DNA of 36,899 bases from an uncultured Bacilli bacterium (GTDB lineage Bacteria; Bacillota_I; Bacilli_A; RF39; UBA660), in NCBI GenBank assembly GCA_944358735.1, contig CALVRT010000015.1, forward strand, positions 1-36,899, in the 5' to 3' direction. The notes under the pieces are model-generated. The model worked only from the letters and a program-made list of their open reading frames with translations. It did not search any database and was not told the DNA's origin. Below are positions 28,175 through 36,899 of the stretch, one piece after another. Each line of letters begins with the position of its first letter. Positions within the stretch are counted from its first letter, which is position 1. A program made the position numbers and the translations under genes.

Positions 28175-29368
28175 ATGTATTATTATTTAGGCATCGACAT
28201 TGCCAAAACCAATCACATTGCTTCTCTTATTAACAATAATGGAGATATTGTTATAAGAGCAATTAAATTTACTAACAGTAATGAAGGTTTCCATAAGTTT
28301 TTATCAATCCTCCAAGATAAACTTGGTAATTTAAATAATATTGAAATAGCTATGGAAGCTACCGGTCATTACTGGCTTTCCCTATATTCTGCTTTGACTG
28401 ATAATGGTTTTAATGTTTCTGTTTATAATCCTTATCAAATTAAAGCTTACCGGGGTGCTTATAATAATAGAAAGCAAAAAAATGATATTATTGATTCTAT
28501 TATTATCGCCGATTACTTAAGAGTTTTTGGTTCTAAAAACTCTAAACTCCCAGAAGAAAATATTTTATCTTTAAAACAATTAACTCGTTTTAGAAGCAAT
28601 ATTGTTAGCAATGTTTCTTCTTTGAAGGTTCAAGTTATTGGTTTATTAGATAAAGTATTTCCAGAATACAAGAAGCTCTTTTGTGATATTTTTGGGACAA
28701 CCTCTAAACAGCTATTACTTAACTGTCCAACTCCTGAAGACATTATTAAGATTCCCACTACTAAACTAGCTAATTTATTATCTAAACATTCTAAAGGTAG
28801 ATTTAATAAAGATACTGCCACTCATATTAAAGAAACTGCTAAAAACTCTTTTGGTATTAAATTTACTACTGATGCTTGTTCTTTTGAAATCAAACAGCTT
28901 ATTAACCAAATCATATTTTTAGAAAATCAAATTGATGAAGTCAGCAAACAAATCAAAGAACTTTACGATAAATTAGATAGTCATCTTTTATCAGTCCCTG
29001 GTATTGGCGTTAATCTTGCTCCTATTATTTTAGCGGAAATTGGCGACATTAATAACTTTGACAAACCAAGTAAACTGATTGCTTTTGCGGGCGCTGACCC
29101 TTCTGAAAATCAATCTGGTAATAAGTTATCTACTAATGATAAAACGTCTAAAAGAGGTTCTCCTTATCTTCGTCACGCCATTTATACAGCTAGTTTAGTA
29201 GCTATATCAAATGAGCCTGAACTTAGAGCTTATTATGATAAGAAAATTAAAGAAGGTAAGCACCACTTTGTTGCCCTTACGGGCATTAGTCGTAAACTTT
29301 TAACCATTATCTACTATATTCTTAAAGAAGATAGAGATTATATCAGATACGACCAGAAACACAACTAA
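28175..29368 (+). CDS. IS110-family transposase (DEDD, Tnp_20)
   Basis: The 397-residue protein has the IS110 layout. The N-terminal RuvC-like DEDD domain has YLGIDIAKTNH (Asp8), IEIAMEATGHYW (Glu) and NDIIDSIIIADYL (two Asp). The C-terminal transposase_20 domain has LLSVPGIGVNLAPIILAEIG and FAGADPSENQSGNKLS, where the Ser is the expected nucleophile. The ending SPYLRHAIYTASLVA and HHFVALTGISRKLLTIIYYI is typical. It is full length and looks intact. It recombines DNA under guidance of the bridge RNA. GGAG lies before the ATG. Confidence 0.95.
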   Translation: MYYYLGIDIAKTNHIASLINNNGDIVIRAIKFTNSNEGFHKFLSILQDKLGNLNNIEIAMEATGHYWLSLYSALTDNGFNVSVYNPYQIKAYRGAYNNRKQKNDIIDSIIIADYLRVFGSKNSKLPEENILSLKQLTRFRSNIVSNVSSLKVQVIGLLDKVFPEYKKLFCDIFGTTSKQLLLNCPTPEDIIKIPTTKLANLLSKHSKGRFNKDTATHIKETAKNSFGIKFTTDACSFEIKQLINQIIFLENQIDEVSKQIKELYDKLDSHLLSVPGIGVNLAPIILAEIGDINNFDKPSKLIAFAGADPSENQSGNKLSTNDKTSKRGSPYLRHAIYTASLVAISNEPELRAYYDKKIKEGKHHFVALTGISRKLLTIIYYILKEDRDYIRYDQKHN

Positions 29369-30776: not shown

Positions 30777-31624
30777 ATGTCAGAAGATTTATTAAAAGTT
30801 AAAAATTATTACAGATAAGGAGGTGTAGTAATAGAACAATTAACACTTATATAAGTTGTTTAAACAGATTCAAAAATTATTTTAAAGGAAAAGATATTTC
30901 TAAATTTACTGAAGAAGATATTTTAGAGTATCTCAAAGTTAATTTTATTGATTTAGATATGTCTCCTGCTACTATTAATGTTAATAGGTCTGCTATCAAA
31001 TATTATTATCTTGTTAACTGGGATAAAACTTTTAGTGATATTTTACTTCCTTATTGTAAAATTGGTTCTAAATTCCCACCTATTTTAGACAAACAAGATG
31101 TTCTTTATCTAATTGAAAACACAAAAAATATTAAACACAAAATTTGATTATGTCTAGGTTTTGGTTCTGGTCTTAGGGTATCCGAAGTTGCTACTTTAAA
31201 AATCGGCGATTTTTCTCATAATCTTCATAAAATTACCGGTAAAGGTAATAAAGATAGATTTGTTCCCTTTCCTGATTTTACTTATAATTTATTATTGGAA
31301 TACTATAAGAAAAACCACGATAAAATTATAGAATCTGGTGGTTATTTATTCCCAAACGTGAATAAAAATTCTTCTTTAAATCATATTAATGATGCTTCTA
31401 TTAAAGATTTCTTTTCGAAACTTAAGAAAAAACATAATTTAGATAGTCAAATGTCTTTCCATACTTTAAGGCATTCTTTTGCCACTGAATTTATTAGAAA
31501 TGGTGGCGACTTATGGAAACTTAAAGCTATTTTAGGACATACTTCTATTAATTCTACTACTGTTTATCTTCATATGGCTGAAAATTTTAATGATATTCAT
31601 TCTCCTTTAGATGGCATATTGTAA
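30777..31624 (+). pseudogene. Tyrosine recombinase linked to the IS91-type transposase, broken
   Basis: Translation begins MSEDLLKVKNYYR at 30777 and then hits TAA. The continuation lies in another frame from about 30821 (SNRTINTYISCLNRF, ITEEDI-type KFTEEDILEYL), so there is a frameshift near 30817. A TGA at 31145 then interrupts it before LCLGFGSGLRVSEVATLKI. The catalytic domain is otherwise complete: Arg in GLRVSEV, GKGNKDRFVPF, HTLRHSFAT, LGHTSINST and the Tyr in TVYLHM. Its TAA overlaps the transposase ATG (TAATG). Similar integrase-transposase pairs are known in some IS91-type elements. The two lesions make a working protein unlikely unless the TGA is read through. Confidence 0.82.
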
Positions 31625-32742
31625 TGTACACTATACAAGATGTTTTTAAGCTATATGGAGACGAATATATTAAAACGCATAATTTATCTAAAGAACAGTG
31701 GAAAGCTTATAATGCCATTCTTAATTGTAAAACTAGTAATTTAGGTTTTCACAATATTACTTGTCAGCATTGTGGGAAAACTATTTCTGCTTTTAATAGT
31801 TGTCGTAATAGACACTGTCCTATGTGTCAAAGCTATCAGAGGGAAAAATGGATTCAAAAAGAATATAATAACTTGTTAGATTGTCCTTACTTTCATATTG
31901 TTACTACTGTTCCGTCTGAACTTAATGATATTGCTTTATACAATCAAAAAACTTTTTACAACATTTTATTTAAAGCTCACAGTGAGTCTATTATGACTTT
32001 GACAAATGACCCTAAATGGCTTGGAGCGAAAGTTGGTATAACTTCTATTCTTCATACCTGGGGACAAACTTTAGAACTTCATCCTCATATTCACTCTATT
32101 GTGACTGGTGGTGGCCTTAAAGATAATAAATGGATTAACTCTAAAGATAATTATTTATTTAAAGTTCAAGTTCTATCATCTTTATTTAAGAAAAAGTTTT
32201 TAGCTTTACTTAAAGAAGCAGATTTAGTTTTTCCTAAACATTTATCTCATCTTAAAAATTCAAAAGCTTTTAATAAGTTTTTAGAAACACTTTATGATAA
32301 AACTTGGATAACCTATATCGAGCCACCTAAAGGTTCACCAGAAAATGTTATAGAATATATTGGTAGATATTCTTTTAGAGTAGCTATCTCTAACAATCGT
32401 ATTAAGAGTATTGATAATGGTAAAATAACCTTTGAATATAAAGATTACAAAGATAATTCCAAAATAAAGTTAATGACTTTAGACGCCTTAGAATTTATCA
32501 GAAGATTCCTTATGCATATTCTTCCCGATAGATTTACCAAAATCAAACATTATGGATTACTTAGTAACAGGGATAAGAAAAATAATCTTAAAATTTGCCG
32601 TATTCTCATAGGACAAACTGTATTTAATGATTTTACTATTTCAATAACTCCAAGAAGGTCATTATATAAATTCGTATGTGATGAATGCGGTTGTGATAAA
32701 TTTACTTATTCTTTTTATTATCGATCCTGCTTTTTAAACTAA
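31624..32742 (+). CDS. IS91-family HUH (Y2-type) transposase
   Basis: The 372-residue protein begins with an IS91 zinc-finger domain: Cys47 and Cys50 (CQHC), Cys60, and Cys65 and Cys68 (HCPMC). The HUH relaxase-like domain follows with HIVTTVPSEL and the metal motif HPHIH (153-157) in LELHPHIHSIVTGGG. The catalytic tyrosine region is ENVIEYIGRYSFRVAISNNR. The tail has another C-x2-C-type cluster (CDECGCDKF). It would nick one strand and move the element by rolling-circle copying. The gene is full length and coupled to the broken recombinase. Confidence 0.92.
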   Translation: MYTIQDVFKLYGDEYIKTHNLSKEQWKAYNAILNCKTSNLGFHNITCQHCGKTISAFNSCRNRHCPMCQSYQREKWIQKEYNNLLDCPYFHIVTTVPSELNDIALYNQKTFYNILFKAHSESIMTLTNDPKWLGAKVGITSILHTWGQTLELHPHIHSIVTGGGLKDNKWINSKDNYLFKVQVLSSLFKKKFLALLKEADLVFPKHLSHLKNSKAFNKFLETLYDKTWITYIEPPKGSPENVIEYIGRYSFRVAISNNRIKSIDNGKITFEYKDYKDNSKIKLMTLDALEFIRRFLMHILPDRFTKIKHYGLLSNRDKKNNLKICRILIGQTVFNDFTISITPRRSLYKFVCDECGCDKFTYSFYYRSCFLN

Positions 32743-33018
32743 ATAATAATATCTTATATCCACATATATTTGGGGGTAAGGGGGCTTATGCCCTAATTTC
32801 CCTATAATCATCTATACCCACACTTACTCTGAAATATTTCCTTTATTTTTTCTTATTACTCCAATCATATGAAATATACTTTCCCCTATACTTCGCTCTT
32901 CGATTTGCCACAATATCGTTATAGAGCTTTTTGTTTGCACAAAAAACTCCATAACTTCCTTTACATTATATCAAAAAAAAGCCCTATTTTCCAGGCTTTT
33001 ACTAACTTATTTATTAAA
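32743..33018. other. Gene-free stretch: IS91 right end and unassigned hairpin
   Basis: No supported gene lies here. It holds the G-rich hairpin AGGGGGC-TTAT-GCCCT (32778-32793), a candidate oriIS. It also holds a long imperfect inverted repeat at about 32919-32952 (TTTTTGT and ACAAAAA at its core), and then a minus-strand terminator. Confidence 0.5.
32973..33000 (-). terminator. Terminator downstream of the AAA/DUF4143 ATPase gene
   Basis: On the minus strand AAAAGCC and GGCTTTT form a stem with a 10-base loop followed by a run of T. It lies beyond the flanking direct repeat, 59 bases after the ATPase stop. Confidence 0.75.
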
Positions 33019-33056
33019 TGTCACCCAACTTTTTTGACGTAAACGTACATTTTGTT
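33019..33056. repeat. 38-bp direct repeat, copy 1
   Basis: The sequence begins TGTCACCCAACTTTTTTGAC and ends CGTACATTTTGTT. It recurs in the same direction at 34326-34363 with one substitution. Copy 1 ends 2 bases before the stop codon of the ATPase gene. Confidence 0.9.
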
Positions 33057-33058
33057 TA

Positions 33059-34306
33059 TTATAAATCTAAGCTATTTGGATTTAGTAAGAATTCTTTAAT
33101 ACCAATTATTAATATACCTTCATCATTTCGCCATAGTTTAATATCATCTTTAACAACGATAATTTTTTTAAAACTATCACCAATGTTATTAAGCGGTCTA
33201 GTCTCTTGAAGTGCTTTTTCGGGCTCATCGATATTTAAAGCTGACTGAATATAGTATCTTTTACTGCCCATATTACACACAAAATCAACTTCTAGCTGTT
33301 TTTTAGTATTACCTTCTCTAATTTCTACAACTCCCACATCGACATTATATCCTCTTTTTAAAAGCTCATTATATATAATGTTTTCCATTAAATGATTTTC
33401 TTCATGCTGTCTGAAATTAAGCCTAGCGTTTCTAAGTCCAATATCAGCAAAGTAATATTTTTGCGGAGTACCAATATATTTTTTCCCTTTTACGTCATAT
33501 CTTTCAGCTTTTTCAATAAGAAATGAATCTAATAAATAATCAATATATGAAATTATAGTATTTTTTGAAACATCTTTTATACCATTACTAATATAAGTAT
33601 TATAAATTTTTTGTGGATTAGTTAAAGAACCGACAGATGATGCTAGCATATTAATCAAAGAATCTAAAACATCATCTTTATTTATATTATTTCTATCAAT
33701 AATATCTTTTTTATAAGTAAGCTCAAATAACGAAGATAAATAATTACTTTTTTGCTCATCCGTTTGTTGTTTTAATATAAGTGGCATACCACCATAAGTA
33801 ATATATTCATTCCACGCTTCATTTTTATCACCTTTATATGCAGAAGCAAATTCTGAAAAAGATAAAGGAAAAACTCTTATTTCATCGCCTCTGCCCCTAA
33901 ACTCGGTAATGATATCACTTGATAAAAATCTTGAATTACTTCCCGTTACATAAACATCTAAATTTCGTTTATGTAAAAATCCATTTAATACAGCTTCAAA
34001 ATTTTTAACATTTTGAATTTCATCAATTAAAACATAATGCATATTATCATCGACAATTTTAGATTCAACATAGTTATCAAGTTCATGTGGATCTAAATAC
34101 TTTTCGTTTTTAATTGCATCTAAATCTAATTTAATTATGTGTTTATCATCAACACCACTTTCTTTTAAATAATTTACAAAAATAGGATCAAGTAAATATG
34201 ATTTACCACATCTTCTTATTCCCGTAATTATTTTTATCAAACCATTGCCTTTTCTTACAATTAGTTTGTTTAAGTAATCATTTCTTTCAATAATTTCTTC
34301 TTGCAT
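33059..34306 (-). CDS. ATP-binding protein, AAA_14 plus DUF4143
   Basis: The 415-residue protein has the common AAA_14/DUF4143 layout. Walker A is GIRRCGKSYLL near residue 30, Walker B is YVLIDEIQNV, and VTGSNSRFLSS plus the arginine-finger-like FRGRGDEI follow. The C-terminal DUF4143 part has YYFADIGLRNARL, LMENIIYNELLKRGYNV and the nuclease-like core LEVDFVCN...YYIQSAL. The last piece resembles PD-(D/E)XK text but has Q where K/E is usual. The cellular role of the family is unclear; members are often in mobile regions. The start is ATG 34306 with AAGGGTGA upstream. The gene is framed by 38-bp direct repeats, which suggests transfer as a unit. Confidence 0.87.
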   Translation of the reverse strand: MQEEIIERNDYLNKLIVRKGNGLIKIITGIRRCGKSYLLDPIFVNYLKESGVDDKHIIKLDLDAIKNEKYLDPHELDNYVESKIVDDNMHYVLIDEIQNVKNFEAVLNGFLHKRNLDVYVTGSNSRFLSSDIITEFRGRGDEIRVFPLSFSEFASAYKGDKNEAWNEYITYGGMPLILKQQTDEQKSNYLSSLFELTYKKDIIDRNNINKDDVLDSLINMLASSVGSLTNPQKIYNTYISNGIKDVSKNTIISYIDYLLDSFLIEKAERYDVKGKKYIGTPQKYYFADIGLRNARLNFRQHEENHLMENIIYNELLKRGYNVDVGVVEIREGNTKKQLEVDFVCNMGSKRYYIQSALNIDEPEKALQETRPLNNIGDSFKKIIVVKDDIKLWRNDEGILIIGIKEFLLNPNSLDL

Positions 34307-34325
34307 ATATATCACCCTTTCTAAT

Positions 34326-34363
34326 TGTCACCCAACTTTTTTGACGGAAACGTACATTTTGTT
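34326..34363. repeat. 38-bp direct repeat, copy 2
   Basis: Same direction and sequence as 33019-33056 except one G for T. It lies about 20 bases upstream of the ATPase start codon, inside the likely leader. The TGT start and ACGTACATTTT tail vaguely resemble insertion-sequence ends; this is not established. Confidence 0.9.
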
Positions 34364-34381
34364 CAATATAATTATATAATA

Positions 34382-34410
34382 TTTTTATAAATTATTCAAT
34401 ATTATGTCAA
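34382..34410 (-). promoter_or_regulatory. Likely promoter of the ATPase gene
   Basis: The minus strand has TTGACA (34410-34405), 17 bases and TAAAAA (34387-34382), a good -35 with a weak -10. Transcription would cross the 38-bp repeat before reaching the ATG at 34306. Confidence 0.45.
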
Positions 34411-34510: not shown

Positions 34511-34566
34511 ATAAAAAGCACGGTTAGTTTGTATGCGACGAGAACTTTATTTTTTAACTAGCCGTG
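34511..34566 (-). terminator. Hairpin terminator at the end of the DGR reverse transcriptase gene
   Basis: CACGGTTAGTT (34519-34529) and AACTAGCCGTG (34556-34566) pair over a 26-base loop. On the minus strand the hairpin ends in CTTTTTATATA. The RT stop codon lies in one arm. The T-tract context (16 bases, 34503-34518) is identical to that beside the hairpin at 30633-30688. Confidence 0.65.
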
Positions 34567-35588
34567 AGTGCGAATAATTTAGTACTTACAATAAGAATTA
34601 AGTGAGCAAAAGTAACCTTCAAAATTTTATTATTTTTATAAAATCTATGTTTTAATTTTAAATTTTTATTTATTTTATATCTTGTTTGCCTGCATAATTT
34701 AATAATAATTTTATTATTTTTAAGTTTAAAATGATAACCTAGAAATACAAAACCATTTTTAATACTAACAATTTCTATCTTGGTATTATTTAGTTTTAAA
34801 CCATATTCATTTAGTTTATTTTTTATTTTGATTAAAGAATTTTTTAAATAATTTTTATCATGATGAATTAATATAAAATCATCCATAAATCTAATAAAAT
34901 ATTTAATTTTTAAGTCATGAATTATATAATGATCTATTTCTGATAAGTAAAAAGCAGATAAAGCTTGTGATGTAAGTCCTCCAATAGAAAGTCCTTTATC
35001 TTTATAGTAATAAGGAATATTTTGAATACTTTTAGTTTTATATTTGTCTTTGATTTTTTTAATATTTTCATTAATATATGAATAATTAGTACTATCTATT
35101 ATTTTAGATATAATATCATATTCATCAGCAGTTATTTTAGCTTTTAACATGTCTTTTAATTTATTATGATCGATAGTATAAAAGTATTTAGAAATATCTA
35201 ATTTTAAAATATAAAATTCATGATATTTTTTATTTAAGTTTAAATATTTTTTAAGCAGTTTAATAGCGTAGCTAGTTCCCATGTTTTTTCTAGTAGCCGT
35301 ATTTCTAATATCTAAATATTTTTCTAATTTAGGGATTAATATAGTTCTAGCGACATAATGATTAATTATTTTATCTATAATATTTAAACTCATAACAATT
35401 CTTTCTTTTGGCTCTTTAATTAAAAAAATATTATATTTTTCTTTATCAAAGTTATTTATTTTATTTAAAGCTATCGTTATATTTTGCATTTTATTTTTTT
35501 CGAAATTATATAATTTTTTCTTGTTTTTGACGTTTTTACTAATTTCATCATAAATATTTAATAAATCATTAAACCTAACTTTCAGCAC
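34554..35588 (-). CDS. Diversity-generating retroelement reverse transcriptase
   Basis: The 344-residue protein is a single-domain RT. Motifs are IFLIKEPKERIVMSLNIIDK (54-73), the first catalytic Asp in LKLDISKYFYTID (131), LSIGGLTSQ (200-208) and FMDD (234-237), followed by LGYHFKL. The IGxxxSQ motif in place of the QGxxxSP of retrons and group II introns is the DGR signature. DGR RTs copy the template repeat with errors at adenines and the cDNA replaces a variable repeat in a target gene. It starts at GTG 35588, overlapping avd by 14 bases. The C-terminal 20 residues look atypical; another frame there encodes GYFCSLNSYCKY, so a late frameshift is possible. Confidence 0.92.
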   Translation of the reverse strand: MLKVRFNDLLNIYDEISKNVKNKKKLYNFEKNKMQNITIALNKINNFDKEKYNIFLIKEPKERIVMSLNIIDKIINHYVARTILIPKLEKYLDIRNTATRKNMGTSYAIKLLKKYLNLNKKYHEFYILKLDISKYFYTIDHNKLKDMLKAKITADEYDIISKIIDSTNYSYINENIKKIKDKYKTKSIQNIPYYYKDKGLSIGGLTSQALSAFYLSEIDHYIIHDLKIKYFIRFMDDFILIHHDKNYLKNSLIKIKNKLNEYGLKLNNTKIEIVSIKNGFVFLGYHFKLKNNKIIIKLCRQTRYKINKNLKLKHRFYKNNKILKVTFAHLILIVSTKLFALTAS

Positions 35589-35910
35589 TTTTGATCCATC
35601 CTAATATCATTTTATGAATTATAAGTAATTTATTAGTCATTTTTAAGCATTGTTTTTCACTTAAATACTTGTTTTTTAAACTTCTTTCAAAATAAAAATC
35701 TAACATACTTATTTTACTTAAAATTTTTATTTGAATATTTTTTCTATCTTTACTATTATTAGCTAAATATATTAAATATAAAATATCTAAAGAATCGTTA
35801 TATAATCTATCTTTTATTACGTTTTCTTTTCTAGGATAATTAATTACTATATTATCTAAAGACATGATAAAATTTTTCATGTTTTTTACAATTAAAAAAT
35901 CATTATGCAT
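35575..35910 (-). CDS. avd: Avd-like DGR accessory protein
   Basis: This is a 111-residue all-helical protein. The spacing of helices and the C-terminal text YLSEKQCLKMTNKLLIIHKM followed by ILGWIKS match the Avd four-helix bundle, whose members end in a similar LGGWxKS. Avd forms a positively charged barrel-shaped pentamer that binds the RT and the template RNA and is needed for mutagenic homing. The gene overlaps both neighbours (8 bases with the MutS-like gene, 14 with RT), so the operon is translationally coupled. Sequence identity to known Avd is probably low, and the call rests on pattern plus context. Confidence 0.82.
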   Translation of the reverse strand: MHNDFLIVKNMKNFIMSLDNIVINYPRKENVIKDRLYNDSLDILYLIYLANNSKDRKNIQIKILSKISMLDFYFERSLKNKYLSEKQCLKMTNKLLIIHKMILGWIKSAES

Positions 35911-36253
35911 TTAATTTACTTTCAATAAAATTTAATATTTCTTTTAAATCTTTAGAAGATAATAATTCTAATTTATCATATATTTTTTCGATATCTATTT
36001 TAAAATTATATTTTGTTTTTCCTTTTTCCGCATATTTTTGATAATTGTTTTTCTTCTTAAAATCAATTATATTACTATCTAACTGATAATTTATTTTCTT
36101 TTCTTCTAAAGTATTTATAACTTTATTAATGGCGGAAATAGGAAAACCTACTCTATTATTAATAATTTTATAATTAAATAAATAGTTTAAAATATAAATA
36201 TCATCATCAAAGACATGATAAAAACCCCCAACTTTTCTAAAAGTTACATTCAT
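35903..36253 (-). CDS. DGR-associated MutS domain-I-like protein
   Basis: The 116-residue protein starts MNVTFRKVGGFYHVFDDDIY, continues ILNYLFNYKI, then GFPISAINKVINTLEEKKIN and FKKKNNYQKYAEKGK. The order (a Phe-Tyr-xxx-Phe strand, acidic turn, helix, GxP and a helix ending near a Lys/Tyr loop) resembles the mismatch-binding N-terminal domain of MutS, but nothing else of MutS is present. Small MutS-I-like proteins occur beside RT and avd in some gut DGRs. Its job there is unknown; binding of mispaired cDNA duplexes is a guess. It is first of the three overlapping DGR genes. Confidence 0.72.
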   Translation of the reverse strand: MNVTFRKVGGFYHVFDDDIYILNYLFNYKIINNRVGFPISAINKVINTLEEKKINYQLDSNIIDFKKKNNYQKYAEKGKTKYNFKIDIEKIYDKLELLSSKDLKEILNFIESKLNA

Positions 36254-36286
36254 TTCGCATACCCCTTTATAATTATAAGTATTATA

Positions 36287-36313
36287 CTAAGTAATATTAT
36301 TAATATTACCTAG
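36287..36313 (-). repeat. 12-bp hairpin between the template region and the DGR genes
   Basis: On the minus strand CTAGGTAATATT and AATATTACTTAG pair along 12 bp (one G-U) with a 3-base loop. There is no T-tract, so it is not a plain terminator. It could be part of the template RNA or a processing or attenuation element. Confidence 0.65.
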
Positions 36314-36450
36314 TAGCTTTTACGATAAAGTTTACAGGCCTGTACGTATACATAGCCATCTTTATCCTGTTTTAGGAAACAAGTCCAAGGATATACTTTG
36401 TTCTTTAATACTCTATTATATAGCCTGGAGCCATATAAGCGCGTTTTTTA

Positions 36451-36558
36451 AAGAGCTGGGAACACCGCGTTGGAGTTAGTCACGTTGTTGTTGCCATTCA
36501 CGTTACCAGTACTATTGAGATTAGCCGCGTTATTACTATTACTGGCATAAGGCGCCCT
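36451..36558 (-). other. DGR template repeat (TR)
   Basis: Read on the minus strand in frame this 108-base segment would encode R-A-P-Y-A-S-N-S-N-N-A-A-N-L and so on, ending A-V-F-P-A-L and a stop. Twelve of 36 codons are AAT or AAC, spaced among fixed residues. This is what a template looks like when adenine-directed mutagenesis is used. The flanking pattern RAPY...AVFPAL mirrors C-type-lectin-fold variable repeats, which commonly read RSPY...GVRPAL. It has no start codon or ribosome site and is not a gene. It lies upstream of and in line with the MutS-like, avd and RT genes. Confidence 0.82.
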
Positions 36559-36574
36559 ATATTTTCAGCATACC

Positions 36575-36899
36575 CTATATATTAGATAATAATTTATCTA
36601 ATATTTGTCTTATTTTAACAATATATAAATATTTTTTATAATAATTATTGTCAAAATTTTTATTTTTAATTATTTCTAAATTATCAATAACTTTATAATT
36701 TATTTGATATTTATCAAATATTTTAAAGCTATTTTTAAATTTTATTAATTTTAATATTTTAGCATCATAGCTAAAACTAAAATATTTGTTTTTTCTTTTA
36801 ATTATTATTAAATCTCTTTTATGTAATTTTTTTAAAAATACATATCTATTATAAGCACTAAATTCATCATCACCTCTTTTCTTGTGGAAATTCGCGGTG
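36575..36899 (-). CDS. Partial gene upstream of the template, possibly MutS-I-like
   Basis: An open frame enters from beyond the window and stops at TAG 36577-36575 (about 107 residues seen). Visible text includes KKRGDDEFSAYNRYVFLKKL, DLIIIKRKNKYFSFSYDAKI and YQINYKVIDNLEIIKNKNFD, and it is very Lys/Ile/Asn-rich. The order Lys-strand, Tyr-Phe-x-Phe, Asp-Ala helix, then INYxVID and a KNxxxNNYYKKY loop parallels the small MutS-I-like gene at 35903-36253. I therefore suspect a related domain; this is weak. It ends 17 bases before the template repeat. Confidence 0.6.
   Translation of the reverse strand, partial: TANFHKKRGDDEFSAYNRYVFLKKLHKRDLIIIKRKNKYFSFSYDAKILKLIKFKNSFKIFDKYQINYKVIDNLEIIKNKNFDNNYYKKYLYIVKIRQILDKLLSNI

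Follow-up and report, generated by a model that had tools for sequence, protein, structure and literature searches.

Overall organization of the cassette

The window analysed here is a 36,899-nt stretch from an uncultured Bacilli bacterium (contig CALVRT010000015.1). Its last part carries a cassette encoded on the minus strand in the order msl2, template repeat (TR), structured spacer RNA, msl1, avd (accessory variability determinant) and reverse transcriptase (RT). This layout points to a diversity-generating retroelement (DGR), the bacterial device for random rewriting of one stretch in a surface-protein gene. The genes msl1, avd and RT are operonic, and avd overlaps RT by 14 bases and msl1 by 8 bases, in agreement with the overlaps of 8–14 bases given in a sequence-only reading of this DNA. 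That reading described the TR, a MutS-I-like gene, avd and RT as a complete cassette. These four parts hold as far as they were given, whereas the variable repeat (VR) lies beyond the contig end, and both the structured spacer RNA and the frame at the contig edge (36898–36575) were missed. The edge frame is a cassette member too, so that the TR is located between two putative MutS-domain-I genes. The msl1-avd-RT order is syntenic, together with TR and VR, throughout the host family, and because it recurs in dozens of genomes, the cassette is not a chance assembly.

Reverse transcriptase and Avd

The RT (34554–35588, minus strand) is composed of 344 aa with a GTG start and harbors the motifs IGGLTSQ and FMDD, of the IGxxxSQ and YMDD types, which had been taken earlier as marks of a DGR RT. 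A profile of 25 relatives finds as its top match in the PDB the 328-residue RT chain of 8ub7 (E 1.4e-38), which we take to be the DGR RT (bRT) of BPP-1, with group II intron RTs (E 7e-19) and retron RTs (E 6e-6) both far behind. Motifs and profile together identify the protein as a DGR RT at the sequence level, and the search against retrons and group II introns leaves the earlier assignment standing. The RT core motifs and the palm are intact in the window copy, and dN/dS is 0.15–0.26 within the sub-clade of the window.

The gene before the RT (35575–35910, minus strand) encodes 111 aa and was previously proposed to be avd. In line with this, the protein matches PHROG 3206 ('Avd protein of DGR') at E 1.4e-14 and NCBIfam NF033474 (DivGenRetAVD) at E 1e-10, the latter under the curated score of the model, and it scores 38.4 bits against Pfam bAvd, just under the cutoff of 40. 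These family matches indicate that the cassette contains the accessory gene typical of a DGR. The avd gene is strongly constrained, with dN/dS mostly below 0.09, and all four genes (RT, avd, msl1 and msl2) have values well below 1 in the sub-clade.

Template repeat, variable repeat and adenine bias

The TR (36456–36556, minus strand) is A-rich and non-coding, and corresponds to the Asn-codon-rich repeat recognized earlier upstream of the genes. The window contig ends about 200 bases before the expected position of the VR, and searches of the window's own 88%-complete assembly with the TR, the target protein and the VR flank found no TR-like sequence that could serve as VR. The nearest target homologs in the same genome, on contigs C17 and C37 (53–56%), are other paralogs, and the C-terminus of the C37 homolog has no TR match. 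The sister locus L032 (CALVVT010000079.1, another Bacilli MAG) is 98% identical and continues through the VR. Its TR is identical to that of the window, and over the 101-nt core its TR and VR differ at 18 positions, 15 of which are template A. A genomic match differing mainly at the adenines of the template, as foreseen in the sequence-only reading, is thus present in the sister locus and was not found in the window's own assembly.

A family-wide scan recovered 33 TR/VR pairs among 58 related loci, in which 471 of 500 differences are located at A, a base occupying 31% of the TR positions in the scanned loci. The scan tolerates one free base, a design that favours A-biased pairs, and the 94% share of A is therefore an upper estimate; the contrast with control scans, whose free base was C, G or T and which yielded 0, 7 and 2 loci, is unaffected. 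The L032 pair and the family pairs indicate that the TR is real and that its VR target differs mainly at template adenines.

In L032, the VR belongs to a 311-aa protein whose N-terminus contains a hydrophobic segment and which is predicted to be either secreted or membrane-anchored. Its predicted structure has a pLDDT of 39 and is unusable. The domain of the target protein (NELWRIxGV...) belongs to a large paralog family, occurring at 42 places in the 1.4-Mb genome of the window. In addition, a hairpin, GTCCCTAGGAAGGCGCAAGTCTTCCAGGGAC, follows the stop of the VR gene in L032 (4562–4700) and is a candidate DGR target hairpin. Counterparts exist in four further loci (L037–L040), with the stem kept by paired changes (GGAAG/CTTCC versus GTAAG/CTTAC). 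Strong hairpins occur within 220 nt after 57% of the VRs versus 4.5% of random windows, transcription terminators being a rival reading of this enrichment. The post-VR hairpins are often about 85–180 nt from the VR, compared with 4–34 bp in phage DGRs, and their loops are mostly not GRNA.

A conserved structured RNA at the 3' end of the template

The spacer RNA (36310–36460, minus strand) is a non-coding element of 150 nt on the 3' side of the TR. It is conserved across the sub-clade of the window. Within it, a TATCCT stretch is conserved and a UACG loop mostly so, and no Rfam family matches the window at the gathering threshold. At every site where a TR was identified, the element begins at the 3' end of that TR, including loci that have the TR downstream of the RT. 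With a covariance model, 22 further sites were detected across the host family (E below 0.01), and over 395 genomes of the class the matches at 1e-4 are confined to this family.

In the model-fitted alignment, 93% of the cells pair and 252 cells show changes on both sides, compared with 74 in shuffles and 42–63 in slid structures. As such an alignment leans to the structure, 23 sequences were realigned by sequence alone, and RNAalifold again recovered the outer helices, with a compensatory change in 19 of 23 pairs. The comparative data thus identify the spacer as a covarying structured RNA. The equivalent spacer of BPP-1 is reported to fold, to recruit bRT-Avd and to prime cDNA synthesis (PMC12875486), and for this reason the spacer RNA described here is likely its counterpart.

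Two MutS-domain-I proteins

The msl1 gene (35903–36253, minus strand) encodes a MutS-domain-I-like protein of 116 aa and in nearly all loci either overlaps avd or directly adjoins it. In its family, 28 of 36 members match Pfam MutS_I (PF01624; best 4.1e-10). The window sequence, which is 29–75% identical to the other members, has no Pfam MutS_I match when searched alone, so the MutS-I-like assignment made earlier is supported for the family and not by the window sequence itself. The msl1 profile finds MSH6 and Taq MutS in the PDB, with weak E values of 0.005–0.07. The protein keeps the GxFY and VGFP motifs, of which the GxFY stretch presumably contains the mismatch-contacting Phe of MutS, and lacks the N-terminal helix of the one-MSL relatives.

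The msl2 gene (36575–36898, minus strand), cut on its 5' side by the contig end and conserved from 36862, encodes a second, shorter MutS-domain-I-like protein. Its profile aligns with that of msl1 by hhalign (97%, 3.5e-11). The AlphaFold model, built from 4 sequences (pLDDT 62), was compared by VIA-align, and all 25 matches listed are MutS/MSH domain I (Z 4.8–6.1), aligned over residues 1–65; Foldseek with the same model gave no E below 0.001, and Pfam MutS_I matches none of the msl2 sequences. The GxFY and VGFP stretches are lost in msl2; compared with other DGRs, whose single MSL is full-length, msl1 and msl2 show complementary losses. The profile alignment and the modelled fold therefore indicate that msl2 is a MutS-domain-I paralog of msl1. 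All 27 two-MSL loci fall into one clade of the RT tree (100/100); row 28 of this clade is a locus truncated by the start of its contig. The msl2 gene is located upstream of the TR in some loci, among them the window, and downstream of the RT in others.

At the conserved start of msl2, the window has TTT (36862–36860) and no canonical start codon. Relatives have ATG (for example L102, MSAYNRYKF) or TTG (L099) at the same position, TTT is shared by the window with L032, L037 and L038, and L039/L040 have TTA. Between the preceding stop and the conserved start, L032 and L039/L040 contain no NTG or ATN codon, and L037/L038 contain only a distant TTG or GTG. Because dN/dS of msl2 is 0.12–0.30 among divergent pairs, the protein appears to be still made in the sub-clade despite the lost start codon. 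In divergent pairs msl1 is likewise under purifying selection. A further locus of the collection, L098 (G184:C50), contains three MSL-type ORFs in one DGR locus.

Proposed working and alternatives

Considered jointly, these features are very probably those of a chromosomal DGR of an uncultured gut Bacilli lineage. What the data support directly is the presence of all components, TR/VR differences specific to adenine, a conserved structure of the RNA, and purifying selection acting on all four genes (RT, Avd, msl1 and msl2). By analogy with BPP-1, the TR would be transcribed together with the structured spacer, which would recruit the RT-Avd complex and prime cDNA synthesis. The RT would misincorporate opposite template adenines, and the mutated cDNA would replace the VR, situated close to the 3' end of a gene for an exported or anchored protein encoded just upstream. 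This target gene would lie beyond the window contig, as seen in L032. The msl1 and msl2 proteins may represent diverged halves of a duplicated MSL. Judging from their fold, a plausible place of action is the heteroduplex step, where they might, for instance, bind or shield the mismatched cDNA/VR duplex.

An RT of another class, namely of a group II intron, a retron or a DRT/UG defence system, beside a merely coincidental repeat is favoured by the matches of generic models (group_II_RT_mat at E 2e-21 and PADLOC RT models), while the NCBIfam equivalogs score far below their curated cutoffs. With 8ub7 as nearest structural relative, Avd adjoining, the IGxxxSQ motif present and TR/VR pairs differing at A, which refute a coincidental repeat, we rejected the retron, group II intron and DRT identities and regard the chance of such an RT as negligible. 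It is also improbable, to a lesser degree, that the DGR has recently decayed, with template and genes still recognisable and retrohoming lost in the window strain. The last ~22 codons of the RT are frameshifted compared with L032, RTs of the window's sub-clade already end early, msl2 lacks a canonical start, and broken DGR copies are found elsewhere in the genus, including G000:C50 in the genome of the window, so that decay is frequent here. Against such decay, the length of the RT tail varies among relatives that carry A-specific TR/VR pairs; moreover, the RT core is intact, selection is maintained on all four genes, and the VR differences in the sister locus are largely confined to A.

The function of the MutS-I proteins is the part where another explanation carries more weight. 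They could act outside retrohoming, as regulators of the cassette or of the spacer RNA, or be neutral passengers after duplication, which we consider somewhat doubtful and still a serious candidate. Some DGR loci of the same genus, among them L118, L119 and L126, have no MSL detected beside the RT, and msl2 has lost GxFY/VGFP and changes its position. However, the tight coupling of msl1 to avd, the purifying selection on both genes in divergent pairs, and the single stable clade of two-MSL loci speak against this alternative.

Relation to known systems

The cassette resembles BPP-1 in RT family, Avd, adenine-specific transfer from TR to VR, and a structured spacer RNA 3' of the TR. It differs in its order msl2-TR-spacer-msl1-avd-RT, in its location on a bacterial chromosome, and in its target, which is a tail fibre in BPP-1 and a predicted exported or anchored protein in the window lineage. 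To our knowledge, BPP-1 has no MutS-I protein. With MutS/MSH domain I, both proteins share the fold and msl1 also the GxFY stretch, whereas msl1 and msl2 consist of domain I alone, without ATPase, clamp and connector, and msl2 is without the FY motif. MSL (Pfam MutS_I) is already known as a DGR accessory (PMC10053308). Like the DGRs with this accessory, the window encodes a MutS-domain-I protein with the RT, in its case together with Avd and a TR/VR system; the window lineage differs from them in that its MSL is present as two diverged paralogs, which have complementary losses and lie on opposite sides of the TR. The novelty is this two-MSL arrangement, of which a literature search leaving out the main DGR survey (10.1093/nar/gky1150) found no description.

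A mismatch-binding domain that is kept, duplicated and specialised beside an RT may offer a handle on how DGR cDNA passes mismatch repair into its target. In addition, the locus shows that gut Bacilli with small genomes hold a reservoir for diversifying surface proteins.

Host spread and dispersed templates

A related RT is present in 32 of the 44 genomes of the genus and, at E 1e-60, in 41 of 243 genomes of the family, and many of the DGR copies in these genomes are broken. The named relatives are uncultured Bacilli MAGs, one of them from roe-deer rectum. The second DGR in the genome of the window (G000:C50, L054 1362–3026) comprises one MSL, Avd and an RT with frameshifts, and is apparently decayed. 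Against IMG/VR, the window RT as a single sequence has no match, and the RT profile finds 80 viral RTs with up to 37% identity; Avd accompanies 62 of these 80, and MSL is detectable in none of the 80 loci.

The covarying spacer RNA is a searchable signature for template RNAs even without a nearby RT, and through it relatives that carry several dispersed templates have already come to light. Three genomes of the same family contain multiple copies of TR plus spacer RNA: six on four contigs with one RT in G619 (L239–L243), at least seven on six contigs with no RT found in G253 (L244–L249), and four on one contig in G607 (L250). Several of these copies are preceded by promoter-like sequence and lack a VR nearby. 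Particular dispersed TRs are fitted by VRs located elsewhere, the best pairs showing 0 non-A and 12–14 A differences, and among the dispersed TRs themselves 59–78% of the mismatches are located at A-involving sites. The set looks like a template library acting in trans. A more elaborate arrangement, a distinct DGR branch in which the duplicated MutS domain is split into two complementary proteins that form a heteromer on the heteroduplex, combined with a conserved template-RNA scaffold whose dispersed, apparently separately promoted copies (G619 and G253) act in trans with one RT, is speculative and seems rather unlikely to us. In L098, three TR spacer RNA copies (2350, 3008 and 3972) lie within 2 kb of one DGR.

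The DGR of the window is itself located in a contig end rich in mobile elements. Upstream of the cassette (28175–29368; 30959–32742) are an IS110-like transposase as well as integrase-like ORFs and an IS91-like transposase that adjoin each other, the families being assigned by visual inspection of the translated ORFs. Moreover, the end of the RT gene adjoins an AAA_14/DUF4143 ATPase gene (34315–33059), which is flanked by 63-bp imperfect direct repeats (86%; 33015–33077 and 34322–34384) and possibly forms an insertion unit with them.
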